Part shown: positions 4,125-18,889 of the stretch, piece after piece
Layout of the letters: every line of letters starts with the position of its first letter
Position numbering within the stretch: position 1 is the stretch's first letter
Source: Leptospirillum sp.
Lineage (GTDB): Bacteria; Nitrospirota; Leptospirillia; Leptospirillales; Leptospirillaceae
DNA: 50,976 nt
Direction of reading: 5' to 3'
NCBI GenBank assembly: GCA_027315205.1
Contig: DAHUYM010000010.1
Coordinates: 1-50,976, forward strand
Translations under genes and position numbers: made by a program
The notes under the pieces: model-generated
What the model saw: only the letters and a program-made list of their open reading frames with translations
Database searches by the model: none
What the model was told of the DNA's origin: nothing

Positions 4125-5174
4125 TCAGGTGGACGATCGCAGGCTCCGATACAGGAAGAAGCAGTCGACGAAGAAAAGGATCGGAGCGACGACAAAGGCC
4201 ACAAGGTCCATGATGAAACGCATCCGCTGGGCTTTCACCATCACGACATCCTCCGGGGCCTGGAGAACCACGATCCACGAATGATCGGTGATCCCCTGAA
4301 GATCCCCGAGGAGCGCCGAACCGAACAGGTACTTCTCCCCTTTCACGTAGTCCTTGAACCCTCCGGAGCGTCCCTGGCGGAACCGGTCGAGAACGGTCCC
4401 CAGGCCGATTTCGCTCATATTCTGGCCGACCAGGAGACGGTTCGAACTGGCGAGGATATGCCCGCCGGACGAGGCGATGTAGGACAGTCCCGGCGCATCT
4501 TTCTGCTTTGGCCGGAAGAGGTACGGGCCGAACGTCTCCGAGAAGTTTTCGACACCGACGAGGTATCCCAGGGGCGTCGTGTCCGACGCCTGTCCCGGTT
4601 TCAGGATCGGGACGGCCAGAAGGAGGAGAACCGCGTGGTTACGGAAGTTGTAGATCGGCCGGGAAATGAGGGCGGGACCGCCGCTGGCGCGGAGCCTGTC
4701 GACAATATCGCGCGTCGCGTTTTGGTACGCCCGCAGGTTCTGGCTCTCGAAACCCCCGATTTCCCGGTTCTTCGCGTCGTAGACCGACCACCCCGCAAAA
4801 TGCCCCAGGTGCCCTTTCAAGACGTACCTTCCGAGCGTGTCGTGAATTCCCGCCGGGGAACCGGACTCCGTCGCCCGGGAAAGGGTCTTTCCAAGCGTCA
4901 TGGTATCGCGGATGTCGCCGATCATCATGCGTCCCACGTCGCTCGCCATGTCCCTCGCGGACCTGGGAAGCGGGTTCCGGGTGACGTAATACGTGGCGAC
5001 AACTTCTCTGTAATAGAGGATCCCCATGACGGAACTCGGGATGATCATCATGAGGAAAATGACGAGTCCCACGTTCCAGCGCCATGCACTGGACCCGGTC
5101 TTTTTCGGCGTTCCGGGAGGTGTTTCGGCATCGGGAACACGAATCGACTGGATTTCCGGAGTGGATTCAGCCAT
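4125..5174 (-). CDS. membrane sensor-like protein with a periplasmic Cache-type domain and no output domain
   Basis: This 349-residue protein has two membrane helices, near residues 35-54 (VGLVIFLMMIIPSSVMGILYY) and near 322-343 (LVAFVVAPILFFVDCFFLY). About 270 residues lie between them, presumably in the periplasm. The internal pattern (GWSVYDAKNREIGGF, YIASSGGHILASSN, HSWIVVLQAPEDVV) resembles double-Cache sensor domains of chemoreceptors and histidine kinases. The protein ends about six residues after the second helix, so no HAMP, kinase, GGDEF or receiver domain follows. It sits between a flavoprotein gene and the dehydrogenase-like gene. The ligand is unknown, and the Cache call rests on pattern rather than alignment. 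Confidence 0.55.
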   Translation of the reverse strand: MAESTPEIQSIRVPDAETPPGTPKKTGSSAWRWNVGLVIFLMMIIPSSVMGILYYREVVATYYVTRNPLPRSARDMASDVGRMMIGDIRDTMTLGKTLSRATESGSPAGIHDTLGRYVLKGHLGHFAGWSVYDAKNREIGGFESQNLRAYQNATRDIVDRLRASGGPALISRPIYNFRNHAVLLLLAVPILKPGQASDTTPLGYLVGVENFSETFGPYLFRPKQKDAPGLSYIASSGGHILASSNRLLVGQNMSEIGLGTVLDRFRQGRSGGFKDYVKGEKYLFGSALLGDLQGITDHSWIVVLQAPEDVVMVKAQRMRFIMDLVAFVVAPILFFVDCFFLYRSLRSST

Positions 5175-5216
5175 CGACGGTCGTTCCCGTTCTCGGTGTC
5201 GGCACGGTTCCGGAAA

Positions 5217-5972
5217 TCACCATTGCTCCTTGTGGATCCGGTCCTCGGGATATCCGGCAGACTGGAAGAAGGCTTCCGTCTGACGGACCATTTCGGGGGG
5301 GCCGCACATGTAGATTTCCTCGTTGGAAAAGCCGGGAACCAGTTCGGGCAAAAGCGCCGTAATACGGCCGAACCGGCCTTTCCAGCCCGCTGGCAGACCG
5401 GGGTGGTCCCTGCCCGAAAGGGCGGTCACCAAGCGAAATCCGGAAAGGGTTTCGGCGTATTCCAAAAGTTCGCCCTCATAGATGAAGTCGTGCGCGTGGC
5501 GGAATCCGTAATAAAGATCGATGGGGACCTTCGAGCCTTCCATCAGGAGGGTCCGGATCATCCCCCGCAAGGGGGCAATTCCGGATCCAGAACCCACGAA
5601 GACGTACCGTGAAGGCTGGAGCCCGGATTTTTCCCTGAGATGAAATGCGCCATACGGACCGTCGATCAGTATCCGGTCCCCTTCCCGGCAATCGTGTATC
5701 CGGTTCGAGAAAAAACCTCCGTCCCCAACCCGGGTGATGGTCAATTCGAGGTACCCTTTCTGGAGATCCAGGGGAGATGATGCCACGGAATAGGCCCTCC
5801 GCACCGGGCGTCCCTTCGTGTTGAGAAAATCCGGTATGGAGGCCATGACGAATTGTCCCGCCTTGAACGTGAAGGGGTGGCCCATCGGAACGGACAGACG
5901 GAAGGTGAGGACTCGCGGGGTTTCGTGGATGATCTGTGTCAGGGTCGTTTCAATGACTTCCCGGGATGCCAT
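5217..5972 (-). CDS. ferredoxin-NADP reductase-like flavoprotein
   Basis: The 251-residue product has the two-domain layout of the ferredoxin-NADP+ reductase superfamily. RRAYSVASSP (about residues 58-67) is the FAD-binding RxYS motif. GSGSGIAPLRGMIRTLL (about 127-143) binds the NAD(P) pyrophosphate. MCGPPEMV near the C-terminus closes the nicotinamide site. There is no [2Fe-2S] domain, so it must pass electrons to a separate partner, perhaps a ferredoxin. It lacks a signal peptide and is probably cytoplasmic. It heads the run of four minus-strand genes ending at 2461; the physiological electron partner cannot be told from the sequence. Confidence 0.8.
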   Translation of the reverse strand: MASREVIETTLTQIIHETPRVLTFRLSVPMGHPFTFKAGQFVMASIPDFLNTKGRPVRRAYSVASSPLDLQKGYLELTITRVGDGGFFSNRIHDCREGDRILIDGPYGAFHLREKSGLQPSRYVFVGSGSGIAPLRGMIRTLLMEGSKVPIDLYYGFRHAHDFIYEGELLEYAETLSGFRLVTALSGRDHPGLPAGWKGRFGRITALLPELVPGFSNEEIYMCGPPEMVRQTEAFFQSAGYPEDRIHKEQW

Positions 5973-6030: not shown

Positions 6031-6912
6031 TCAACTGCCGAGCTTGAGCGAAAACCCCGTGCGCCGCGCACGTTCGAGAACCCGGTGGAACAGGTAGAGA
6101 GCTCCGGAAAAATAGACCACGTCCATAAGAAAAGCCCATCCGAGTTCATTCCAGGGCAGTCCCTTGCCGTTCAGGACCGCCCTCATGCCCTCGAACACGT
6201 GGGAGGCCGGTACGAAAAAAGCCACCTGGTGGAATCCCGGGGGAAGCACCGATACCGGATTGAAGACGGCACTGACCGGTTGGAAGAGGAAGATAACGCC
6301 CCACGCCAGCACTTCCGCCTCCTGGCCGAACCTGAGAATGAGCGCGGTCGTCATGATGCCCAGTGCCCATCCCATCACGAGCAGGGCCATCACGAACGGG
6401 ATGAGGGACACCCCAAGCGAGAACAAGGAATAGGAAAAAAGGAAGTATGCGAGAACGATCGCAACTCCCGACGACAGGGCCACCTTCAGAAGACCGGTGA
6501 GCATGGCGCCGCCGATCACGTGGAACGGGGTGATCGGGGCGACCAGAAGGTTGTAGAGATTCTTGGACCAGATCTCCTCCAGGAACACAACGGAGATTCC
6601 CTGTTGCGAACGGTAGAGCATGTCCCACAGGAGAAGGCCACCCAAGAGGGCCTGGGCCGTCCCGGGAATCATGTTGGCACCCTGTCTCAGATAAAGCGTC
6701 AGGAAGCCCCAAACCAGAAGGTCCAGGAGAGGCCAGTAAAAGATTTCCATCCATCGGGGGAGGCTTCGTTTATAAAGATAGAGCTGCCTGAGCAGGATCC
6801 CGGCGATCGGACGCCAGGCCAGGAGGCCGGGAGAGGGCGACTCCCGGTCCTCTCCGGCGACGATCCCGACTTTCGAGATTCCCTGAGGACTGTTCCTGTC
6901 GATGATTTTCAC
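6031..6912 (-). CDS. ABC-2 type transporter permease
   Basis: About 293 residues with six predicted membrane helices in the usual ABC-2 arrangement. An early amphipathic region (YKRSLPRWMEIFYWPLLDLLVWGFL) leads into the first helix. The segment NLLVAPITPFHVIGGAML resembles the coupling region, and the stretch FQPVSAVFNPVSVLPPGFHQVAFFVPASHVFEG is typical of ABC-2 permeases. The GTG at 6912 is chosen because it overlaps the ATPase stop (GTGA); an ATG at 6987 would run 79 bases into the ATPase gene. It forms the membrane channel for the ATPase encoded immediately upstream and is last in the TolC-containing operon. The exported substrate is unknown. Confidence 0.85.
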   Translation of the reverse strand: MKIIDRNSPQGISKVGIVAGEDRESPSPGLLAWRPIAGILLRQLYLYKRSLPRWMEIFYWPLLDLLVWGFLTLYLRQGANMIPGTAQALLGGLLLWDMLYRSQQGISVVFLEEIWSKNLYNLLVAPITPFHVIGGAMLTGLLKVALSSGVAIVLAYFLFSYSLFSLGVSLIPFVMALLVMGWALGIMTTALILRFGQEAEVLAWGVIFLFQPVSAVFNPVSVLPPGFHQVAFFVPASHVFEGMRAVLNGKGLPWNELGWAFLMDVVYFSGALYLFHRVLERARRTGFSLKLGS

Positions 6913-7676
6913 CCCCGATTCAGTCGTGCGTGTTCCATGCTCTTGATAAACACAGTCTCGAGATCGTTCGCACCGAATCGGGCGCACAGTTCCGAAGCCG
7001 TGCCCGTCGCGACCGTTTCTCCCGATTCCAGAAGGAGTATCCGGTCGGAAAGCCGCTCGACCTCGCGCATATTGTGGGATGTGTAGACAAGCCCCATCCG
7101 GTCCCGCTTGACCCTTTCCTTCAGGAGGATACGGATCTCCTGTGCCACTTCCGGATCCAGTGTGGCGGTCGGCTCGTCCAGGAAAAGGACCTCCGGACGG
7201 GTCAAGAGGGCCTTGGCAAGGCCCAGCCGTGCGATCTGTCCCGTGGAAAGCCTGCCGACCCGGAACGAGGAGAGAGGGCCGAGGTCCAGCTCTTCCAGCA
7301 TCTCGGACACCGCTCTCTTGCGGTCGGGAAGATCGTACAGGAGTGAGAAGACCTGCAGATTTTCCTGGACGGTCAGGGAAAACGGCAAGGACAGGTCGGT
7401 TGATGCATAGTTGATGCGGTGGGCAATGCGGCGGCGGTTTTGCGTCACATCGACCCCGAAGATGCGGACCTGGCCGGAGTCCGGGACCAGAAGGCCCAGG
7501 AGGATCTGGATCAGCGTCGATTTTCCGGCTCCGTTCGGGCCGACGATCGACAGGATTTCGCCCCGGCTGACGGTGAGCGAGACACCGTCCACCGCGGGAG
7601 GGCTATCGGTCCCGAAACGCTTGACCAGTTTCACGGCCTCGAGAACGACGCAGGGGGGAGCGGACCCGTTATCCAC
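6909..7676 (-). CDS. ABC transporter ATP-binding protein
   Basis: The nucleotide-binding subunit shows Walker A GPNGAGKST, the signature LSTGQIARLGLAKALL (the second Gly of LSGGQ is Thr), Walker B VLFLDEPTATLD and a switch His in TSHNM. It energises the ABC-2 permease encoded downstream. The start is uncertain. GTG at 7676 overlaps the upstream stop by eight bases and gives about 255 residues beginning close to the conserved domain. ATG at 7757 would add 27 residues but overlap the upstream gene by 89 bases and lacks a ribosome binding site. It is part of the minus-strand operon that begins with TolC at 10510. Confidence 0.85.
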   Translation of the reverse strand: MDNGSAPPCVVLEAVKLVKRFGTDSPPAVDGVSLTVSRGEILSIVGPNGAGKSTLIQILLGLLVPDSGQVRIFGVDVTQNRRRIAHRINYASTDLSLPFSLTVQENLQVFSLLYDLPDRKRAVSEMLEELDLGPLSSFRVGRLSTGQIARLGLAKALLTRPEVLFLDEPTATLDPEVAQEIRILLKERVKRDRMGLVYTSHNMREVERLSDRILLLESGETVATGTASELCARFGANDLETVFIKSMEHARLNRG

Positions 7677-8298
7677 CCGTCCGGTCCAGTCCCAGGCCCG
7701 AAAAATGAAGGAAATACCTTTTCCCCCCGGCACTCGCTCCTCCGGTGAATCCGACATAGAGATCGAAATTGGGTGTTCGGGGCAGGACCGAAAAGTGGAC
7801 GGGGATGCTCAAGGAGTCCCCTTTCCTGAAGAGGCGCCTTTTATCCCAGTCCAGCGTTCCCTCGGATGCCCCCTGCTTCCCGTCGACCCAACGTGGCGGG
7901 CTCGAAAGGATCAGGGAAAACCCTTCGGGGGAGACCGCCGGCCCAGTGAACGTCATCGTGAGGACGAGGTCGAATCCGTTCTTCGAGCTCTCGATCCGGG
8001 AAACGCCCGCGGAAAAAAGATCGGTCCCGATCGAGGTCACCGCGACATCCGACCCCGTGGACCGGGGGAAGAGGGCGGTGGGAGGAACGGGCAGGGGAAC
8101 CTGCATCACCCCCGATCCCGAGCGCGCGGTATCGGCGGGCTTGGGAAGGGTTATGTAGAAGAAGATGGTGTAAAAGATGCCGCTCAGGAAAAGAACGGCG
8201 GCAAGTCCACCGAGGATCCAGAATAGTCGTCTGGATTTTCGGTCGAGATTCCGGTTCGAAATGCCTAGCGAATCGAGCCGGGAGCGATCTTCATCCAT
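7669..8298 (-). CDS. membrane-anchored periplasmic protein of unknown function
   Basis: I do not recognise this 209-residue protein. A basic N-terminus (NRNLDRKSRR) precedes one membrane helix, LFWILGGLAAVLFLSGIF, at about residues 28-45, so the remainder is probably periplasmic. That part looks beta-rich (DLVLTMTFTGPAVSPEGFSL, LSIPVHFSVL, NFDLYVGFTGG). Its place between an outer-membrane barrel gene and an ABC ATPase suggests a periplasmic role in the exporter, perhaps as an adaptor. However, it lacks the coiled-coil and lipoyl motifs of known membrane fusion proteins. ATG at 8298 has GGAGAG upstream. Confidence 0.6.
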   Translation of the reverse strand: MDEDRSRLDSLGISNRNLDRKSRRLFWILGGLAAVLFLSGIFYTIFFYITLPKPADTARSGSGVMQVPLPVPPTALFPRSTGSDVAVTSIGTDLFSAGVSRIESSKNGFDLVLTMTFTGPAVSPEGFSLILSSPPRWVDGKQGASEGTLDWDKRRLFRKGDSLSIPVHFSVLPRTPNFDLYVGFTGGASAGGKRYFLHFSGLGLDRTGG

Positions 8299-8336: not shown

Positions 8337-9089
8337 TCAGAACCAGATCGTGATCCCGGAGACGAGCGGAGCAAGAAAAAGGATCTCGTTGGCAATCACA
8401 AGTCCCGTGGGATCCAGTTCCACGAAAACGCCCATCGGAAGTCCCGGAACATGCCAGGACATTCCGCCCCCGGCGTCGAGGACCATTCCGTAGGGATGGC
8501 CGGTCAGCGGTCCCGACCCCGATGCCGAGAGACTGGCCACCCCCATGTCCCCCCTGAGGTAGGGGGACAACGTTCCCCATCCGGTCAGGGAGTCCGGAAA
8601 AAGGGAACTGAAGTCCCAGCCCGCCCCAACGGTCACGATGAAGCCCGTGACGCTCGCCGAACCGGGAATCGGACCGGTGGAGGACGGGGTCGGAGTGGAC
8701 GAAAAAAAGCTTCCCGACGAGAGTTCCGTGACCAATGACGGACCGGGGGTCATCTGGAGATAGGAAAACGAAGCGATCCACCGGAAAGGCCCGGGGGTAT
8801 TCCCGGGACGATAGGAAAGCTCCGCCCCGACGCCCAGGGCGTCGTTGAACAGCGCGGCGTCTCCCGTCCCTACCGGAATATAGTACGAGAATGTGGGTGC
8901 GATCGTCCAACGATCCGTGCTTCCGGAAGGGGGCTTTTGCGCCCCGTTTTCCGATGGGGGATTCACGGGGCCGGGAATGGGCGGGAGATCGGCGCCCCAT
9001 CCCGCGGAAGGTCCCGACACGCAAACGACGAAGGCCGTGGTCAGGATCCATGCTAAGACCCGTCCGGACAAATCTTCTGGATCCTTCAA
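8337..9089 (-). CDS. small outer-membrane beta-barrel protein, efflux-associated (family copy A)
   Basis: This 250-residue protein has an N-terminal signal peptide (hydrophobic VLAWILTTAFVVCVSG), a Pro/Ser-rich linker, then alternating beta segments and a terminal ITIWF typical of outer-membrane barrels. The TTG start overlaps the TolC gene's TGA (TTGA), indicating coupling. It shares three motif blocks with the protein at 18159-18830: FNDALGVGAELSY (81-93), PYLRGDMG (176-183) and GHPYGMVLDAGGG (197-209). Both are encoded next to TolC genes in efflux operons. The barrel call is solid; a role in export is inferred from position only. Confidence 0.7.
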   Translation of the reverse strand: MKDPEDLSGRVLAWILTTAFVVCVSGPSAGWGADLPPIPGPVNPPSENGAQKPPSGSTDRWTIAPTFSYYIPVGTGDAALFNDALGVGAELSYRPGNTPGPFRWIASFSYLQMTPGPSLVTELSSGSFFSSTPTPSSTGPIPGSASVTGFIVTVGAGWDFSSLFPDSLTGWGTLSPYLRGDMGVASLSASGSGPLTGHPYGMVLDAGGGMSWHVPGLPMGVFVELDPTGLVIANEILFLAPLVSGITIWF

Positions 9090-10510
9090 GGAACACCGTC
9101 CTTCGGAAGATTCATCGTCTTGAAATCATAGTTCGTCCCCATGTCCCTCTTGAGCCGCGCCAGCGAAATGGCATAATCCGCTTCGGCCTGAACCAGGTCG
9201 GAACGGGCTTTCGCGAGATCCCGCTCGGTCTGGGTGACGGCCACCGTCGTCCCGGTGCCGACCTTGAACTGGGTCTCCGAAAGCTCCACGTTCTTCTCGG
9301 CCTGCCCGACCAGGATGCGCGCGTCCCGGATCTTCTCCCGGGCCGAACGGAGCGTATAGAGATCGGAAAGGACGCTCTGGATCACCCCCTGCCGCAAGTC
9401 TTCCCTCTGGAACTTGATTTGCGTGAGCTGTGCCCTCGCCTGACGGGTCTGCTCGACATTCAGGAAACCGTTGAAGATCGGAAGCGTCACTGTCGTAGCG
9501 ACGGCCCAGTTATAAACGAGGGGAAAGAACTCGCTGTCCAGGCTGTAGGAACCCACGGTCTGCACCGTAGGAAGGAATTGGGCCTGGTTATTCTTGACCA
9601 CCTGCTTCTGGGCCTCTTCCTGGCGATCGATCTGTTTTAGGTCCGGACGGTTGGAAAGGGCGGTCGCGATGACCTGGTCGGGAGTGAATTGGATCTTTAG
9701 CGGGGGATGGATTGTTTCGACACGATAGGGCCGCTTTCCGATCACCCCCATCGACCGGTTCAGCGTCAACAAGTCGACCCGGAACTGATTTTTATCCTGG
9801 ACTTGGGCCAAGAGGGCGTTCGACAAGTTGACGCGGGAGTTCAGCACGTCGTAGGCATTCGCCACACCGTCGTTGTAGCGGGCCAGGGCCACTTCAAGCT
9901 GCAGTCGGTAATCCGAAATCGTGAGACGGTCGACGTCCAGAAGCTTTTGGTCCTTCAGAACATTGAAATACGCTGCCTCCACGTTATAGACGATGACGGT
10001 CACCGTTCTTTCCGCCCCCTTGTGCGACGCTTCGTAAAGCGCCCGGTTCTGGGCGACCTGAGTTCGACGGCGGCCGAACGAGAAGAGTGTCTCGGTCAGG
10101 GAAAGCTGCGCCTGGTAGAAATCGAATGAAACGGGGGACTCCGGGATGGTGAACGGGAACCCTGGCTGCGGTCCGAAGTTTCCGGTTTCGCGGGTATAGG
10201 AACTGGTCCCGGCCAGGGTTGGGTAATACTGGCTTTGGGCGATCCCGATCCCGGCCTTGGCGCTATTGACTCCGGCCTTCGCGGCTCCGAGCTGCGGGTG
10301 GGTCCTTAGGGCAATCTTCAACGCGGTGGGCAAAGTCAGGACATAGCTGGACTCGCGCGTTTCCGTAGGCGGGGGTTCACCGGCCTGGACCGGAATTCGG
10401 GGATGCGACATATCCACGAGCAGGAGAAGGACGGCCGCACACCCGACCACCGACCTCAACGTGTGCGGCCGGTCAAAAATGCGGTTCGGCATCCGAAGGC
10501 TTTTAGGCAT
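9086..10510 (-). CDS. TolC family outer-membrane efflux protein
   Basis: About 474 residues with a hydrophobic signal segment (SVVGCAAVLLLLVDM). The body shows two repeats of the outer-membrane efflux fold: ALKIALRTHPQLGAAKAGV for the first coiled coil and VIATALSNRPDLKQIDRQEE for the second. The C-terminal helix ends TQTERDLAKARSDLVQAEADYAISLARL. TolC trimers form the outer-membrane exit duct of tripartite exporters. Because the downstream genes encode an ABC ATPase and permease, this copy probably serves an ABC exporter. The ATG at 10510 is preferred; an alternative at 10492 has no visible ribosome binding site. The gene diverges from a lysR-type regulator gene, a common regulatory layout. 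Confidence 0.85.
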   Translation of the reverse strand: MPKSLRMPNRIFDRPHTLRSVVGCAAVLLLLVDMSHPRIPVQAGEPPPTETRESSYVLTLPTALKIALRTHPQLGAAKAGVNSAKAGIGIAQSQYYPTLAGTSSYTRETGNFGPQPGFPFTIPESPVSFDFYQAQLSLTETLFSFGRRRTQVAQNRALYEASHKGAERTVTVIVYNVEAAYFNVLKDQKLLDVDRLTISDYRLQLEVALARYNDGVANAYDVLNSRVNLSNALLAQVQDKNQFRVDLLTLNRSMGVIGKRPYRVETIHPPLKIQFTPDQVIATALSNRPDLKQIDRQEEAQKQVVKNNQAQFLPTVQTVGSYSLDSEFFPLVYNWAVATTVTLPIFNGFLNVEQTRQARAQLTQIKFQREDLRQGVIQSVLSDLYTLRSAREKIRDARILVGQAEKNVELSETQFKVGTGTTVAVTQTERDLAKARSDLVQAEADYAISLARLKRDMGTNYDFKTMNLPKDGVP

Positions 10511-10578
10511 TTCCGGTTCGCGCTCCTGATTCGCACAACCCAACGAACCCCGTTGATCCGCAAGGAAGGTCAACTTTA

Positions 10579-10614
10579 CATATAGTTAAAAATTATGCGA
10601 CAATGAAAATTATG
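10579..10614. promoter_or_regulatory. AT-rich repeats in the TolC/LysR divergent intergenic region
   Basis: This AT-rich block lies in the 177-base gap between the divergent TolC and LysR genes. CATA (10579-10582) and TATG (10594-10597) form an inverted repeat with an 11-base spacer, the form of a LysR-type binding site. AAAATTATG occurs twice (10589-10597 and 10606-10614), 17 bases apart. These are candidate sites for the adjacent regulator and for promoters of both directions; I cannot assign a confident -10/-35 pair. Confidence 0.35.
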
Positions 10615-10687
10615 AAGAGTGTCAATGATATGTCTTTAAGTTATGACGAAAAATGATTTTCAGCCGCATGATCCTCAGGAGCATCAA

Positions 10688-11635
10688 ATGACCCTATCGC
10701 AGATACACACGTTTATCGTGGTCAGCCAGACCCTGAACTTTACTCAGGCGGCTCGTGAACTGGGCGTCACCCAGCCGGCCATCAGCACCCAGATCCAACT
10801 TCTCGAAGAAGAGTTCCAGACAAAGCTTTTCAACCGGGTGGGACGACGGGTCTACCTGAGCCAGACCGGGCTCCTGTTCCTGGAACAAGCGCGCCAGATC
10901 CTCGAAAAAGTCAACCAGAGCAGTGAAGCGATGCACCATTTTAAACCCATTTCCAAAGTGGATCCCCTCCGTCTCGGGATCGGCTTCGGCACAGGGTTTA
11001 CCTCCCAGACACCGTTCCAGAACTTCATCCGGGGCACCTACAAGACGGGAGCCGTTCAGACCCACCAGGCATCCGACCTGGATCTCGTACGGGACCTCGA
11101 AGGGAACAAGGTGGACATGGTCATCACCCAGATTCCCGAAGAGGGTTCAGCATACGACGAACTCGCAAAGAAATTCGACCTCCACCCGATCCAGAAAACC
11201 AACATCCTCGTCGTCGCGGCCCCTCATGTCGCGTCCGGAAAATGGCGCAGGGACCCCCGCGTCCTCGAAGAGTATCCCCTGATCCTTCCCTCCAGGCAAA
11301 CCTTCTTCCGGGATTACATCGACAGCATCATTGCCCGCCTGGGGCTCGATACGACCGTCACGCTCGAAACCTCGGACACCGACCTGATCCGGAAGGTTCT
11401 TCTCTCCGGAATCGGGATCGGTCTCCTTCCGGCCCTGAACATCCGGGTGGAGCTCGACGGAGGAACTCTCACCGGTCTTTCCGTCCCCGAAATTTCGAGT
11501 CCTTCGATCCTTGCGGCCCTTACCCGGAAGGGGGAGTGCGATCAGATCCCCTCCATGCTCCATCTCGCGGTAAAGATCCTGACATCCAGCTGGATGTCCC
11601 TCAATCCGGCATCCCTCGCACAAATTTCCGCCTGA
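10688..11635 (+). CDS. LysR-type transcriptional regulator
   Basis: About 315 residues. The N-terminal winged helix-turn-helix is unmistakable: TFIVVSQTLNFTQAARELGVTQPAISTQIQLLEEEFQTKLFNR covers residues 7-49 of the usual LysR start. The substrate-binding domain follows (LRLGIGFGTGF, VDMVITQIPEE, SGIGIGLLPALN). The ATG at 10688 is chosen because AGGAG lies six bases upstream and the helix-turn-helix then starts at the normal position; an upstream ATG at 10643 has no such site. Divergent from the TolC-ABC exporter operon, it most likely controls that operon and itself. The inducer is unknown. Confidence 0.9.
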   Translation: MTLSQIHTFIVVSQTLNFTQAARELGVTQPAISTQIQLLEEEFQTKLFNRVGRRVYLSQTGLLFLEQARQILEKVNQSSEAMHHFKPISKVDPLRLGIGFGTGFTSQTPFQNFIRGTYKTGAVQTHQASDLDLVRDLEGNKVDMVITQIPEEGSAYDELAKKFDLHPIQKTNILVVAAPHVASGKWRRDPRVLEEYPLILPSRQTFFRDYIDSIIARLGLDTTVTLETSDTDLIRKVLLSGIGIGLLPALNIRVELDGGTLTGLSVPEISSPSILAALTRKGECDQIPSMLHLAVKILTSSWMSLNPASLAQISA

Positions 11636-11669
11636 CGACTCTTCCCAAAGGGATGCCCCGTCCAGTCTT

Positions 11670-14600
11670 CTAGGAGGTTTCCCATTCCGCCCCTCCTTCC
11701 GACATTGCCTTGATCGGGAAACGGCGGTGGAGGGAAATATACACCGTCGGGACCAGAAGAAGCGTGAAAACCGTCGCCAGCGTCAGCCCTCCGATGACGG
11801 CCCGTGCCAGCGGAAGGCTGTTGGAACTCCCCACATCGAAGCCGAGGGCCATCGGGACCAGCCCCATGACGGTCGCCAGACTCGTCATCACAACCGGCCT
11901 CAAACGGGTCCGTCCTGCAAGAATCACCGCTTCTTCGAGCGGAAGTCCCCGTTCGCGCTGCAGCCGATTGCTGTAATCGACGAGAAGAACCCCGTTGCTG
12001 GCCGCGATCCCCACCGTCATGATAACCCCCATGAACGCGATGGTCGAGAACGGAGTTCCCGTGAGGAAAAAGATCCAGATCACCCCGACGAAGCTCATGG
12101 GAACCGAGAACATGATCACGAAGGGATCCAAAAGCGATTTGAACTGGGTCGCCAGGACCATGTAAACCAGGAGAATGGCAAAGAGGACCGCGATCGCGAG
12201 CGACAGGAACGCCCCCCTCTGCTGGGCGATCTGCCCGGAAAGACGGACCGAGAACCCTTCCGGGAGCGGTGTCCTGGCGACTAGGCTCTTCAGGTCTTTG
12301 GCGATTTCGCCCAGCGGCCGGCCCACCGGATTCGCCGAGATATTGATCAAACGGGTCATGCGTTTTCGGTCGATTTCGTTCGGTCCCGTCGATTCCCGGA
12401 TGCTCGCGATATCCCTTAGGAGGATCGGATTCCCCTGGGCATTCGTCAACAGGACGTTTTTCAGGTCTTCCAGCGAATGCCGGTGGGCGCGGTCCAGCTG
12501 AACGATGATGTTGTATTCGTTCCCGGTCGACGGATCGGTGTAGATGGAAGGCGTGTTTTCGTTCCCCACGAAACTCCAGAGGACCGACGAGGCGATCTGC
12601 TGTACCGAAAGTCCGACCACGGCCGCCTTGACCCGATCCACCTTGACATCCAGCTCGGGGTAATGGAAATCGTTCGGCAGGACCTGCACATCACCGACAC
12701 CGGGAATCTTCTTCATCCCCCTCGCGAGTTCTTCCGCCAGCCGTTCGCCTGTTCCGATGTCATATCCGAAGACTTCGACATCGATGATCCCCTGATAACC
12801 GAAATTCAGGATCCGTTCGATCAGCCCTCCCGGCATGAAATAGATTCCCACCCCCGGGAACGTTCCTTTCATCGCCTCCCTGACCCGGTCCATGAGCTGG
12901 TCGGAGGTTTCGCGCCTCTTGTCCGGATCGACCAGGCTCACCTGGACGAACCCCGTGTCCGGACCGGTGTTCGCCGTGAAGACCGACGCGGCTCCGTTCG
13001 TACCCCGTCCGGCCGTGTTCCTGAGGCCGATGTTCGACGCGATGATCCGGATATCCTTGGGGGAAAGCGTCTTGCGGACGATCGCCTCGACGTCTTTCGC
13101 GATTTCGGTCGTGATTTCAATCCGTGTCCCCGGAGGGGCCTGGATATTGATCATAAACTGGCTTTCGTCCGGGGCCGGGAAAAATTCGGTTCCAATGAAA
13201 TGGATCAGGGGGAGCGAGAGAAGGAACACGGCGAGGATTCCCAGGAAGATTTTCTTCCGGTGGCCGATGGCGAACGTAAGCTGACGGACATAGAAAGATT
13301 CGATGGCCCTGAACCCTCTTTGGAACCAGTCGAAAGGCCCTTTCAGACCCCCGAGGACCATTCGCTCGGGTTTCAGAAACCGGTAGCAGAGAAGCGGCGT
13401 CACCGTCCGCGACACGAAGAACGAGGCAAACAGGGCGAAGGTGATCGTCAGCGCCATGGGGGTGAAAAGAAGCCGTCCAACGCCTTCCATGAACAGGATC
13501 GGCAGGAAGACGATGACCGTGACTATGGTGGATGCCAGGATCGGCATCGCGACTTCCCGGGCTGCGGAAAGGAGGGCCCGTGGGCGGGGTTCGTCGTTCA
13601 GGGAGAAATGGCGGTAAATGTTTTCGAGCTCGACGATGGAGTCGTCGACGAGACGGCCGACCCCCAGGGCCAATCCTCCGAACGTGAAGATATTCAGCGT
13701 CTGGTGGGAAAAGTAAAGGAACGTGAGTGCCACGAGGGCCGAAAGGGGAATCGCCGTCCCGATGATCAGGGTCGCAGGGATATCGCCCAAAAACAAAAGG
13801 ATCACGACGATGGCCAGGATAGCGCCCTGGAGAATTTCCCGGTCGAGGCTCCGGATCGATTGGCGGATGTACTGTGACTGGTCGAAGAACGTGTCGAGAT
13901 GCGCTCCGGGCGGAATCCCGACGAGTTTGGGCAAGGCCGCCCGGACCTCGTCGACGATCCGCACCGTATTGGATCCCGGCTGCTTGTTGACGGCGAGGTA
14001 GACGGCGTTCTCCCCGTTGACCCGCACGATGTTCGTCTGTGTTTCCGCATTGTCCTCGACGGTCGCGAAATTCTTGACGAAAATCGGGATGGTACGCCCG
14101 TCAGGTGCGATTTGCGTCGAAACGGGAAGGTTCCGGATCGTATCGACCAATTCATGGGTGATCTGGTTGTTCGTGAAGAGGTTGTAATCCTTCGAACCGA
14201 TCTTGACGTCTCCCGACGGGAGGATCAGGTTCGCCGAATTGATGGCGTTCACGACCTGCATGATCGACAGGTTCCGGCCGAACAGTGCGTGGGGGTCCAC
14301 GTTGATGTTGATCTGTCGGACCTTTCCCCCGTTGACGGTGGCCTGCGAGACATTCGGAAGCTGTTCGAGCTGGGGCTCGATCACGTTGTACGCCAGGTCG
14401 TAGAGCTGGATCTGGTTCAGGTTCGGATCCGATACCGTCACCGAGACGACCGGGATGTTCGCGATATCGAATTTCAGGATGAACGGCTGCTGTATGCCCG
14501 GAGGCAGCTGGTTCAGAATCCGGCTGATCATCTGGACCGCCTGGACCATTCCCCCGTTTAGGTCTTCCCCCCAGTTAAACCAGACCTGGATGGCCGATAC

Positions 14601-14861
14601 CCCTTCCCGCGACTGGGATTGTATGTGGCTGACGTTGTCGATCGTGGCGAGGGTTTTTTCGAGGGGATAGGTGATGCTTCTCTCGACGTCGAGCGGCGAA
14701 GCCCCGGGATAAATCGTTCCGACGATCAATACCGGTACCGACAGATTCGGGAAAAGGTCGATCGGCAGCTTTGAAATCGACTGGGCGCCCACAAGGATCA
14801 GCGCGCAGGACGTCATCAGGACGCCGATCCAGTTCCTGAGGGCGAGGCGGGTCAGCCACAT
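11670..14861 (-). CDS. RND efflux pump inner-membrane subunit (HAE1/AcrB-like)
   Basis: The 1063-residue length is standard for hydrophobe/amphiphile efflux RND pumps. The first helix (NWIGVLMTSCALILVGAQSI) is followed by a large periplasmic porter loop. Helix 4 carries GVGRLVDDSIVELENIYRH with the paired aspartates of the proton relay, and a second half repeats the layout (IAVLFAILLVYMVLATQFKS). It uses the proton gradient to move substrates into the TolC duct. The carrier residues favour drugs, detergents or organics over the heavy-metal CusA type, but this is a family-level call. It is the last gene of the TetR-TolC-MFP-RND operon; the ATG at 14861 has only a weak ribosome binding site. 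Confidence 0.92.
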   Translation of the reverse strand: MWLTRLALRNWIGVLMTSCALILVGAQSISKLPIDLFPNLSVPVLIVGTIYPGASPLDVERSITYPLEKTLATIDNVSHIQSQSREGVSAIQVWFNWGEDLNGGMVQAVQMISRILNQLPPGIQQPFILKFDIANIPVVSVTVSDPNLNQIQLYDLAYNVIEPQLEQLPNVSQATVNGGKVRQININVDPHALFGRNLSIMQVVNAINSANLILPSGDVKIGSKDYNLFTNNQITHELVDTIRNLPVSTQIAPDGRTIPIFVKNFATVEDNAETQTNIVRVNGENAVYLAVNKQPGSNTVRIVDEVRAALPKLVGIPPGAHLDTFFDQSQYIRQSIRSLDREILQGAILAIVVILLFLGDIPATLIIGTAIPLSALVALTFLYFSHQTLNIFTFGGLALGVGRLVDDSIVELENIYRHFSLNDEPRPRALLSAAREVAMPILASTIVTVIVFLPILFMEGVGRLLFTPMALTITFALFASFFVSRTVTPLLCYRFLKPERMVLGGLKGPFDWFQRGFRAIESFYVRQLTFAIGHRKKIFLGILAVFLLSLPLIHFIGTEFFPAPDESQFMINIQAPPGTRIEITTEIAKDVEAIVRKTLSPKDIRIIASNIGLRNTAGRGTNGAASVFTANTGPDTGFVQVSLVDPDKRRETSDQLMDRVREAMKGTFPGVGIYFMPGGLIERILNFGYQGIIDVEVFGYDIGTGERLAEELARGMKKIPGVGDVQVLPNDFHYPELDVKVDRVKAAVVGLSVQQIASSVLWSFVGNENTPSIYTDPSTGNEYNIIVQLDRAHRHSLEDLKNVLLTNAQGNPILLRDIASIRESTGPNEIDRKRMTRLINISANPVGRPLGEIAKDLKSLVARTPLPEGFSVRLSGQIAQQRGAFLSLAIAVLFAILLVYMVLATQFKSLLDPFVIMFSVPMSFVGVIWIFFLTGTPFSTIAFMGVIMTVGIAASNGVLLVDYSNRLQRERGLPLEEAVILAGRTRLRPVVMTSLATVMGLVPMALGFDVGSSNSLPLARAVIGGLTLATVFTLLLVPTVYISLHRRFPIKAMSEGGAEWETS

Positions 14862-14877
14862 AGGTCGATGTTTTTTC

Positions 14878-15999
14878 TCAGGACTCTCGTACCTTGTCCG
14901 GAGAAAAGACGGGTACGAACGGTTTTGGGGTGACGTTCTCTCCGTCCATCAGGTGCTGCTGTCCCATGACGACGACGGAATCGGACGGACGGACACCGTC
15001 CAGAATCTGCACCGAATCCTTGTTCTGTATCCCGACGACGACTGGCACCTTGCGGACGATGTTTCCGGATTCGACCCGGTACACGAACGATTCGGATTTT
15101 CGGCTGATTACGGCATCCTTGGGGAGGACAACCGCATCCGGGATTGTCCGGAGATGAAGGTTCGCCCGGGCGAACATCCCGGGTTTCAGTGTTCCGTCGG
15201 AGTTCGGCATATCGATCTCCACGGCCAGCGTCCGGGTATTGGTATCCAGCGCCGGATTCATCCTGGTGATTTTTCCGGGAAAGACGCGGCCCGGAAACGC
15301 GTCGGCACGGATCTGGAGCTGAAGACCGGGCTTCAGGAAGCGGACGTCGCCTTCCGGAACGCTGATCACGATCTTCACAATGTGCGTGTCGACGACCGTA
15401 AACAGGGGATTCTGCGTCGACGAGACGGCACCCGTAGTCGCGGGAATGGTCGCTCCGGGGTCCACCATCCTGTTGAAGATATACCCGTCGAACGGAGCGG
15501 TGATGTTCGTATAGGTCAGCATCTTCGCGGAATAGTCGACGGCCGCCTGCGCCTGCTGGCATTGCTGGTAGGCCAGGTCGTAGGAATCGTGGGATACGAG
15601 GTTTTTGGCCAGGAGTTTCTTGTACCGCTTGGCGTTCAGGCAGGAATAGTCCCGTGACGCGACAGCTTGCTGCAGCTGGGCCCGGTAGGTCGTATCGTTG
15701 ATTTTCGCCAGGACCTGTCCTTTCTTCACGTGGTAGCCCCTACGAACCGAAATCGAATCCAGATATCCGCTCACCTGCGAGAAAATCGCCGCCTGGTTGA
15801 TCGGCTGGATATCCGCGGTGAGGGTGATCATCTGGGAAATGGGGTGGACAGACGGATGGGTCACGAAGACTTCCGCCGTCTGAACTTCATGGGGAGATTT
15901 CCCTCCCTTCATCTGGGCCCGGTGCGATACCCGATAGCCGATCAACACGACAACGCCCACGAGGACAATGGCGACGATCCATTTTCCGGCCCTATTCAT
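14878..15999 (-). CDS. RND membrane fusion protein (periplasmic adaptor)
   Basis: 373 residues with a single N-terminal membrane anchor (WIVAIVLVGVVVLIGY, residues 8-23). A barrel-sandwich half (QVSGYLDSISVRRGYHVKKGQVLAKI, about 90-115) precedes a coiled-coil hairpin. The second lipoyl half is TNITAPFDGYIFNRMVDPGATI, and the beta-barrel region includes RVFPGKITRMNPALDTNTRTLAVEIDM, which matches the MFP family closely. It bridges the RND pump and TolC. The ATG at 15999 overlaps the upstream tolC-like gene by eight bases and has AGGAAGAGG upstream. Expression is presumably controlled by the TetR gene of the same operon. Confidence 0.9.
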   Translation of the reverse strand: MNRAGKWIVAIVLVGVVVLIGYRVSHRAQMKGGKSPHEVQTAEVFVTHPSVHPISQMITLTADIQPINQAAIFSQVSGYLDSISVRRGYHVKKGQVLAKINDTTYRAQLQQAVASRDYSCLNAKRYKKLLAKNLVSHDSYDLAYQQCQQAQAAVDYSAKMLTYTNITAPFDGYIFNRMVDPGATIPATTGAVSSTQNPLFTVVDTHIVKIVISVPEGDVRFLKPGLQLQIRADAFPGRVFPGKITRMNPALDTNTRTLAVEIDMPNSDGTLKPGMFARANLHLRTIPDAVVLPKDAVISRKSESFVYRVESGNIVRKVPVVVGIQNKDSVQILDGVRPSDSVVVMGQQHLMDGENVTPKPFVPVFSPDKVRES

Positions 16000-17470
16000 G
16001 CGAGACCTCTTCCTTGCTGCGTTCCAGGAGTTTCTTGAGGGGATCCATCCCAGTATCCCGGATCAGGTTGGCCCGTGCGATCTTGTATCCGAAGACCGCC
16101 TGAACGTATTGCGCCCTGGCGGATGCGAGATCGGCTTCCGCCTGAGTCACGGCGACAGCCGATCCCACTCCCACCCGGTATTGCCCTTCGGCAAGCCGGA
16201 GGCTTTCCCTGGCCTGGGACAGGAGCGACCGCGTCGTATCGATCCTTTCCAGTGCCGTCTTCATGTTGAAGTAGTCCTGTTTGACCTGCATGACAAGGTT
16301 TTGCCGGAGGCTTTCCTGGGAATCGTTCGCCGCGGCCAGCGTCTTCTGCGCCTGGGCCACCTGGTGGACGGTCAGGAACCCCGAGAAAATCGGAACCGAT
16401 ACCGTGGCGCCCGCGAACCAGTTGTACGTAAGCGGGAAAAAAACGCTGGCGTAGGAATAGCCGGCCGTCGCCCCAATGGTAGGAAGGTAGGTGCTCTTGT
16501 AATAGAGTTCGTTCTGCCGGTCGGCCTTGCTCTGGTCGTCAGCCGATCGCAAGTCGGGCCTTTTTTCCAGGGCATAGTGCAAAAGATCGTCAATCGACAC
16601 ATTCTTGTCTGTGAAGGTAAGCCCCGTATTCACCTCGAAATGGCCTCCGTATTCAACACCCATCGCATTCAGGAGACCCACCTTCGCGATCTTGACGTTG
16701 TTCACGGCCGTGATGAGGTTCAGCTTGGCGTTGGAACGATTGACCTCCGCGTTCAAAACATCGAACTTCGATGCCGTTCCCACCTCGAATTCTCCCTGAG
16801 AGACGGCGAGCTGTTCGCTGTAATCCTTCAAAGTCCTCTTGGCGGCGTCGACCAGGAGTTCGTCCTCGGCCAGGGTATCGTATGCCACCTCGACATTTGC
16901 AAGGAGAGAATACATGGTCCACTCAGCCTGTTCGCGGGACGAGCGTGCATTGAGCTTGGCCTGGCGGACCTGGGCGACCCTCTGGCCGAAAGTGAAGATC
17001 GTCTCGGAGACGTTGACCTGTGCCTGATAATAGCTGTAGGCGGTGTTGGAAGGGGGCAGGATTTCGGAAAAAAGGGCCGGGGGAATCCCCGGAGAGATGA
17101 CAAAGTTTCCGGACTCGTACGTGTATCCGGCCCCTACGCTCACATGGGGCCAGTAATTGGAGAGGGCCTGCCCGATGATTTCCCGGTTGGCCTCGTAGGT
17201 GTGGACGGCCTGCCGATATTGTGGATGGGCCTTCAGCGTGATCATCATAGCTTCCCTCAGGGACAACCGGGGGGGGATCGGGTAGGGCACGGGCTTCGAT
17301 GATGAAGACGGAGATCTTCCGGCCGCTGAGGTATATGCGTATGGATCGGATGCGAACGCCCTTCCCCCGAAAGAAAGCATCGCGACCAAAACAAGAAAGA
17401 CCCCCGGGACGGTCCCTGCCCAGATCGATCGGTTCGGTCCGCCATCCCGGAATCTGCGGGTCGATATCAT
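15992..17470 (-). CDS. TolC family outer-membrane efflux protein, RND partner
   Basis: About 492 residues. A signal peptide (GVFLVLVAMLSFGGRAFA, about residues 24-41) precedes the efflux fold: REAMMITLKAHPQYRQAVHT and LLHYALEKRPDLRSADDQSK mark the two repeats, and the last helix is AVTQAEADLASARAQYVQAVFGY. It resembles the TolC at 9086; compare FPLTYNWFAGATVSVPIFSGFL with FPLVYNWAVATTVTLPIFNGFL. The ATG at 17470 has GGAGG seven bases upstream and overlaps the TetR stop as ATGA, so translation is probably coupled. It supplies the outer-membrane exit for the RND pump encoded by the next genes. Confidence 0.9.
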   Translation of the reverse strand: MISTRRFRDGGPNRSIWAGTVPGVFLVLVAMLSFGGRAFASDPYAYTSAAGRSPSSSSKPVPYPIPPRLSLREAMMITLKAHPQYRQAVHTYEANREIIGQALSNYWPHVSVGAGYTYESGNFVISPGIPPALFSEILPPSNTAYSYYQAQVNVSETIFTFGQRVAQVRQAKLNARSSREQAEWTMYSLLANVEVAYDTLAEDELLVDAAKRTLKDYSEQLAVSQGEFEVGTASKFDVLNAEVNRSNAKLNLITAVNNVKIAKVGLLNAMGVEYGGHFEVNTGLTFTDKNVSIDDLLHYALEKRPDLRSADDQSKADRQNELYYKSTYLPTIGATAGYSYASVFFPLTYNWFAGATVSVPIFSGFLTVHQVAQAQKTLAAANDSQESLRQNLVMQVKQDYFNMKTALERIDTTRSLLSQARESLRLAEGQYRVGVGSAVAVTQAEADLASARAQYVQAVFGYKIARANLIRDTGMDPLKKLLERSKEEVSHE

Positions 17471-18147
17471 GCTTTGCCTCCGCGGGATAAGGGAATCGGG
17501 CTTTTTGGCGTCAGGGCTCCGGTCAAAAAAAGATTCACGATTTCCTGGATCCTTTGGACAGGCCGTCCTTCGGGATCGGGGGGAAGAGACGGGAATAGGG
17601 AGTCGGCCCATAAGGCGCTGACCAGGGACTGGGAAAACAGCCAGGTATCGATGTCGGAGCGGAACACTCCCTGCCGGACTCCCTGGTCGACGGCAGCCTC
17701 GATCATCGACAGGCGTTCGCGTCGCTGCAGATGGATCTTTTCGGACTTGAGGCAGCGTTCTTTGGGCTCTTCGATGGCCATGACCCTGAAGATGTCCTGA
17801 TGAAGACGGATATAGCGTGTCATGGACCGGGCCATTTCTTGCAGTTTCTCGATAGGGCCTATGTCTTTCCGGTCACGGACTCCGCGGAGGATCTCCTGCA
17901 GATGCTCGTGTCCCAAGTCGAGAATTTGCGAATAGAGAGCTTCCTTGTTCGTGAAATACCGGTACAGGGTGCCCTTGCCGATGCCAAGGATCCGGATCAG
18001 GTCGTCGAGGGTGACCTGGTCGTACCGTTTCTCGGCGAAAAGATTGGCGGCACGTTCTATGATGCGGGTCCGGGCCTGTTCGAAACGGACCGAACGGATT
18101 TCCGGGATGGCAGGCCTGGCCTTGGGGTCCTGGAGGGGTTTGACCAC
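17467..18147 (-). CDS. TetR family transcriptional regulator
   Basis: About 226 residues. The helix-turn-helix is RIIERAANLFAEKRYDQVTLDDLIRILGIGKGTLYRYFTNKEALY at roughly residues 28-72, followed by an all-helical ligand-binding domain. TetR proteins typically repress efflux operons until an inducer binds. The GTG at 18147 is chosen because GAGGAG lies six to eight bases upstream; the open frame extends upstream to 18228 but overlaps the barrel gene. It is the second gene of the efflux operon, so autoregulation is likely, and a 14-bp palindrome at the operon promoter (18876-18889) is its probable operator. Confidence 0.9.
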   Translation of the reverse strand: MVKPLQDPKARPAIPEIRSVRFEQARTRIIERAANLFAEKRYDQVTLDDLIRILGIGKGTLYRYFTNKEALYSQILDLGHEHLQEILRGVRDRKDIGPIEKLQEMARSMTRYIRLHQDIFRVMAIEEPKERCLKSEKIHLQRRERLSMIEAAVDQGVRQGVFRSDIDTWLFSQSLVSALWADSLFPSLPPDPEGRPVQRIQEIVNLFLTGALTPKSPIPLSRGGKA

Positions 18148-18158
18148 GGCTTCTCTCC

Positions 18159-18830
18159 TCAGAAGTAAAACGTGGTACCGACGACGACCGGCAGGACCGT
18201 CACCGTGCCCGATCCGAAGAAAAACCACTGGGAACGGAATTCCCCAAAAAAACCGACCGGAAACTCGGGCGCCCTTCCTTCGATACCGACCCCCGCGTCT
18301 GCCATCGTCCCGTTAAAATGGCCATCCTGTGCCCCCGCCCCCGAAACACTGGCGCCGACCCCGCCTACATCGGCACGGATATAGGGAACCCAGGGCTGGT
18401 GCTGGAACAGTTTCGGAAAAAAGGGATTCATCGCGAGGCGTCCCCCGACGTATCCTTCCGCATAGGAAGTGGATACCGGACTGACGATTCCACTTTGTGG
18501 CGGAGAAACATGGGGGGAATTGAAGATGTACCCTCCGCCCGCGAGGATGCGGACTCCGGTGATTACTCCATAGGAAATCTCCCCCAATCCTCCGATGCCG
18601 TCCTGGTAGAAATTGATCGGCGCGGGAGTTTGCAGGACGTTAAACTGGAATCCCAGGGACAGACCGAACCGGCCGAACGTCTCGTCAAACTTGGATTCGT
18701 CGGTTTGCTCAGGATCGGAGGCGTCGGCTTGCACCGGAAGAGAGGCGGCAAAAACATGGGACGTCCGGACGGAAAGCAGGATGAGACAAACCAGGACACA
18801 CACGATGGAACGGGAAAGGAAACGATCCAC
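18159..18830 (-). CDS. small outer-membrane beta-barrel protein, efflux-associated (family copy B)
   Basis: 223 residues starting at a GTG with GGAGG five bases upstream. The signal peptide is IVCVLVCLILLSVRTSHVFA, with cleavage expected near residue 29. Beta-strand patterns fill the rest and the chain ends FYF, the usual outer-membrane assembly signal. It shares three blocks with the 8337-9089 protein: FYQDGIGGLGEISY (74-87), PYIRADVG (149-156) and GHFNGTMADAGVG (170-182). It is first in the TetR-TolC-MFP-RND operon. A passive pore, a TolC accessory or an envelope sensor of efflux are all possible; nothing in the sequence decides. Confidence 0.7.
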   Translation of the reverse strand: MDRFLSRSIVCVLVCLILLSVRTSHVFAASLPVQADASDPEQTDESKFDETFGRFGLSLGFQFNVLQTPAPINFYQDGIGGLGEISYGVITGVRILAGGGYIFNSPHVSPPQSGIVSPVSTSYAEGYVGGRLAMNPFFPKLFQHQPWVPYIRADVGGVGASVSGAGAQDGHFNGTMADAGVGIEGRAPEFPVGFFGEFRSQWFFFGSGTVTVLPVVVGTTFYF

Positions 18831-18875: not shown

Positions 18876-18889
18876 ACTGACCGGTCAGT
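18876..18889. promoter_or_regulatory. 14-bp perfect palindrome, probable TetR operator
   Basis: ACTGACCGGTCAGT is a perfect palindrome with a CCGG centre, the form recognised by many TetR-family repressors. It sits exactly at the predicted transcription start of the minus-strand efflux operon, whose second gene encodes a TetR protein. A second, 13-base palindrome (GATTAGCCTAATC, 18893-18905) overlaps the predicted -10. Confidence 0.55.

Follow-up and report, generated by a model that had tools for sequence, protein, structure and literature searches.

A family of predicted small outer-membrane barrels accompanies two sister TolC genes in the Leptospirillaceae

The bacteria considered here are acidophilic iron oxidisers used in biomining. 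Within a 50,976-nucleotide stretch of DNA from one of them, a Leptospirillum sp. (hereafter the window), lie two export operons on the minus strand, with a plus-strand LysR gene between them (Table 1). The upstream operon runs BB2, TetR, TolC2, MFP, RND, so that the barrel gene BB2 stands at its head, as a preliminary description of the locus had it; TolC2 starts with an ATG at 17470 that shares bases with the TetR stop codon (ATGA). The downstream operon begins with TolC1 and continues through BB1, TMp, the ABC ATPase and the ABC-2 permease to a flavin/NAD reductase and a membrane protein. The last two genes trail the ABC genes in all relatives with a long enough contig. TMp carries conserved VPLPVPP and PRWVD motifs, and its gene always sits on the BB1 side of the ABC ATPase, between the two. 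The open reading frames proposed for BB1 and BB2 were confirmed, each encoding an N-terminal hydrophobic signal segment and a terminal Phe. A terminal Phe is a general trait of outer-membrane barrels, where it belongs to the BAM beta-signal, and so by itself provides no evidence that BB1 and BB2 are related.

Table 1. Genes and elements of the two operons; positions are those of the window.
Feature	Positions	Strand	Remarks
Flavin/NAD reductase and two-TM membrane protein	4125-5972	-	3' of the ABC genes; membrane protein without Pfam match
ABC-2 type permease	6031..6987	-	PF01061/PF12698, weak
ABC transporter ATP-binding protein	6909..7757	-	PF00005
TMp	7672..8298	-	membrane-anchored; single TM segment at the N-terminus, periplasmic domain ~160 aa; no match in Pfam/NCBIfam
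BB1	8337..9089	-	250 aa, TTG start; signal peptide, Pro-rich linker of ~35 aa, predicted 8-stranded barrel
TolC1 outer membrane efflux protein	9086..10573	-	PF02321, 206 bits; heads the ABC operon, divergent to LysR; 10573 is the longest ORF start, the real start probably lying further downstream
LysR-type regulator	10643..11635	+	separates both operons; kept in all relatives checked
RND permease	11670..14861	-	PF00873, 782 bits
RND periplasmic adaptor (MFP)	14878..15999	-	TIGR01730 above cut-off; PF16576
TolC2 outer membrane efflux protein	15992..17470	-	PF02321; start read from the sequence
TetR regulator	17467..18147	-	PF00440; inferred GTG start ~12 bases past the BB2 stop
BB2	18159..18830	-	223 aa, GTG start; BB1 paralogue, predicted 8-stranded barrel
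Palindrome ACTGACCGGTCAGT	18876..18889	.	perfect, 14 bases; 5' of BB2; probable TetR operator

Judged by their sequences, BB1 and BB2 are true paralogues. BLASTP aligns the two across the C-terminal 75 residues (4e-11), and comparison of their family profiles with hhalign gives a P of 7e-20 over 177 columns. When the whole genome is searched, BB1 recovers itself and BB2 alone, and the family profile also finds only those two; since other outer-membrane barrels must also be encoded in this genome, the similarity is not one of generic barrel composition. The preliminary description had allowed that the two proteins might prove to align no further than barrels in general do, and the BLASTP and hhalign values show that they do align further. 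Among the three shared motif blocks that it listed, the second (PY[LI]RxD[MV]G) and the third (GHxxGxxxDAGxG) match exactly in both proteins, but the first is merely approximate in BB2, where Y stands in place of F and the second Gly has moved by one position (FNDALGVGAELSY in BB1 versus YQDGIGGLGEISY in BB2). Across the family, E90 is the sole invariant position of this first block, with G86 and S92 conserved in at least 90% of members, and the C-terminal aromatic residue F250 is invariant (33/33).

The barrel family is real and apparently restricted to the Leptospirillaceae, and both the family and its pairing with TolC appear to be undescribed, the fold itself being ordinary. At least two copies were found in 18 of the 21 Leptospirillaceae genomes (that of the window included), one copy in two genomes and none in one. 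In one genome (G018), three members (L013, L078 and L041), two of them of BB1 type, lie on separate small contigs, probably the product of a mixed assembly. The search of the phylum covered 396 Nitrospirota genomes, and no significant match emerged among the 375 from outside the family; two marginal hits there (E 0.005-0.009, one with stop codons) were taken as chance. Two strict BB1 patterns scanned against GTDB species returned Leptospirillum or Nitrospirae assemblies only, BB2 found no match among plasmids, and a PDB sequence search gave no match, though these searches could have overlooked distant relatives from other phyla. Neither BB1 nor BB2 matches Pfam or NCBIfam, and the view that the pair fits no described family stands. 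A single one of the 33 family members, a BB2 orthologue (L061), matches PF13505 (OMP_b-brl; E 6e-5, 23.7 bits), below the cut-off of 28.7 bits.

Gene order around the barrels was kept on 20 mapped stretches wherever the contig permits, with a sole exception (G009). The conserved arrangement is BB2-(TetR)-TolC2-MFP-RND, then LysR in reverse orientation, then TolC1-BB1-TMp-ABC ATPase-ABC permease-reductase-membrane protein; in one genus (g3), no TetR gene was detected in the interval from BB2 to TolC2. A tally of the neighbours of homologues, as the preliminary description had suggested, thus reveals a strong and conserved linkage to TolC genes. The genome of the window has about 10 TolC-type genes, and a barrel of this family lies beside only two of them, TolC1 and TolC2, and with none of the other eight. 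Presence and absence of the barrels also track their own export modules. The exceptional genome retains BB1 and the TolC1/ABC genes but has no BB2, TolC2 or orthologous RND gene. In a second genome (G007) there is no ABC permease, linked TMp, orthologous RND gene or barrel of either type. These assemblies are incomplete (72% for G009 and 80% for G007), so that the absences may represent missing sequence and the pattern counts as supporting evidence only. At the exceptional locus (L071; G009:C87, 7642-16611), the LysR/ABC half joins flagellar-type genes directly rather than the RND half, which marks a naturally occurring deletion or rearrangement of the cluster.

The TTGA coupling of BB1 to the TolC1 stop codon, noted earlier in the window, is borne out in its relatives: an exact 4-base NTGA overlap between the TolC1 stop and the BB1 start is present in 17/17 loci from five genera. 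Such a fixed overlap is a sign of translational coupling. The palindrome upstream of BB2 is a probable TetR operator: its motif, ACTGAC-YR-GTCAGT, precedes BB2 in 5/5 genomes that have TetR behind BB2, and it is absent within 420 bases before BB2 in the genus that has no TetR there. In two loci of that genus a related palindrome, TTGACTGATCAGTCAA, lies further upstream of BB2, inside the 420-base stretch.

The preliminary description argued from two independent associations with TolC genes to an accessory outer-membrane component of tripartite export. The linkage to TolC holds, but the argument from independence fails, and a role in the pump is something read from the linkage. In a tree built from 42 TolC-type proteins of four genomes, 34 of them neither TolC1 nor TolC2, TolC1 and TolC2 each form their own clade (support 100/100), and the two join in one clade against the 34 others (100/97); BB1 and BB2 likewise split cleanly. 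The two barrel genes form part of a single conserved Leptospirillaceae cluster, in which the TolC genes are sister paralogues. This sisterhood indicates that barrel and TolC duplicated together though their pumps differ, which places the barrel with TolC rather than with either type of pump and raises the likelihood of a barrel-TolC link. The simplest history is a single duplication of a barrel and TolC pair before the Leptospirillaceae diversified, with each copy joining another inner-membrane pump. A point against an accessory role is that gene order is unlike between the halves, with TolC1 followed by BB1 in one and BB2 followed by TetR and then TolC2 in the other.

Structure prediction, also called for in the preliminary description, gives eight-stranded barrels of the OmpA/OmpX type for both proteins. 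The AlphaFold2 models of BB1 and BB2 each contain eight strands (mean pLDDT 77 and 75), and their best matches among PDB structures are OmpX, OmpA, NspA, Ail, OprF and OmpW, with Foldseek E values of 1e-6 to 1e-4 against OmpA/OmpX/NspA/Ail-type barrels at 8-16% identity in the structural alignments. By residue alternation, one face is clearly more hydrophobic in 7/8 strands, strand 5 being weaker; a hydrophobic outward face and an invariant C-terminal aromatic residue, the two marks sought in an outer-membrane barrel, are thus both present. The six invariant charged residues (E90, R103, R179, D181, D205 and E224) all fall on the more polar face, which presumably faces inward. The OmpA barrel has a plugged interior, and invariant charges placed in a similar way argue against a wide pore.

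The case for a barrel-TolC link now draws on the co-duplication, the 4-base overlap with TolC1, the TetR operon of BB2, and the occurrence of each barrel, which parallels that of its module. Gene linkage to TolC and co-inheritance with it, as looked for in an accessory subunit, are both seen, with all of this evidence drawn from one bacterial family. We give a probability of about 0.5 to the reading that BB1 and BB2 are dedicated accessory outer-membrane proteins of TolC1 and TolC2, acting in assembly, anchoring or stability in a broad sense. Direct binding of barrel to TolC is a more doubtful proposition. Under this reading, an ancestral pair of barrel and TolC in the Leptospirillaceae would have duplicated, the TolC1-BB1 copy coming to serve the LysR-flanked ABC-2 exporter and the BB2...TolC2 copy the TetR-controlled RND tripartite pump. 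Each barrel would be made together with its own TolC and occupy the outer membrane beside the TolC trimer, its polar, plugged interior making it no large pore, and there it would aid the assembly, anchoring or stability of TolC. The periplasmic Pro-rich N-terminal arm may be what touches the TolC equatorial region. Missing TolC lipidation was considered as a reason for needing an anchoring partner and was set aside: TolC1 and TolC2 have no lipobox, yet most of the remaining TolC-type proteins in these genomes lack one too, so its absence does not discriminate. A bolder version, possible though on balance unlikely, is that the barrels represent a new class of TolC-dedicated integral partner, a small barrel beside the TolC trimer that is needed for assembly or gating; if so, the exit duct in one bacterial family would be a two-protein structure.

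Conserved operon membership is also compatible with co-regulation alone. The main rival, a minority reading that we nonetheless take seriously, is that the barrels are co-regulated OmpX/Ail-like proteins that remodel the envelope, altering the outer-membrane surface or barrier under pump-inducing stress without contacting TolC. A fold nearest OmpX, OmpA, NspA and Ail and an interior that looks closed both suit such a protein, and shared induction alone could explain the position of BB2 as first gene of a TetR-regulated operon. However, the regulators differ (BB1 is LysR-flanked, BB2 is with TetR) and both barrels were nevertheless kept with sister TolCs; moreover, the invariable TolC1/BB1 overlap and the co-duplication with TolC exceed what co-regulation needs.

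The structural matches, which include OmpW and AlkL, also bring to mind a narrow channel or diffusion path of the OmpW/AlkL/OprG type through which the export system's substrate or a counter-ion would cross the outer membrane. OmpA and OmpX types match equally well or better, however, the presumed inward face carries the invariant charges, and a passive inlet next to an exporter has no clear use; we regard this reading as quite improbable. It is more improbable again that the barrels are outer-membrane enzymes, for instance lipid A-modifying barrels like PagP or PagL, which are likewise 8-stranded and of which PagP appears far down the list of BB2 structural matches. The conserved catalytic Ser/His that would ally the family with these enzymes is wanting, as the alignment has no invariant Ser or His (H198 becomes Arg in several BB2 copies) and the polar positions that never vary hold Asp, Glu and Arg and point inward. 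Dedicated TolC accessory proteins remain our preferred reading.

Changed expression of TolC and RND genes has been observed in an NaCl transcriptome of L. ferriphilum (PMC9053815), the accessions of which are unmatched to the BB cluster. Compared with known tripartite systems, the RND half shares the canonical permease, adaptor and outer-membrane factor along with a TetR regulator, whereas the ABC half differs from tripartite ABC efflux systems in having no recognisable adaptor gene, a place that TMp may fill as a possible stand-in. Both operons differ from tripartite RND and ABC efflux systems by one additional outer-membrane barrel each. With the OmpA/OmpX/NspA/Ail barrels (PF13505 and relatives), BB1 and BB2 have eight strands, a signal peptide and a terminal aromatic residue in common, but the N-terminal Pro-rich arm and the fixed TolC neighbourhood set them apart.

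To our knowledge, TolC-type ducts have long been regarded as self-sufficient in the outer membrane. Work of 2026 on YbjP, a periplasmic lipoprotein partner of E. coli TolC that sits on the TolC equatorial domain (eLife 2026, PMC13082787; PMC13095208), provides an example of a TolC with a dedicated partner and has raised the question of whether such partners are common (PMC13082787); no barrel partner of TolC is mentioned in the titles and abstracts of the literature searched. The role proposed for BB1 and BB2 is like that of YbjP, an extra protein on the outer-membrane side dedicated to TolC. YbjP, however, is lipidated and periplasmic, whereas BB1 and BB2 are predicted integral barrels with no conserved Cys, as YbjP-type lipidation would require, among the invariant or nearly invariant columns of the family alignment, and so would be another type of protein. 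They would thus stand as a second candidate TolC partner of a different type, an integral barrel carried through duplication with its TolC, and the existence of two natural duplicates on two types of pump makes the partner question testable.
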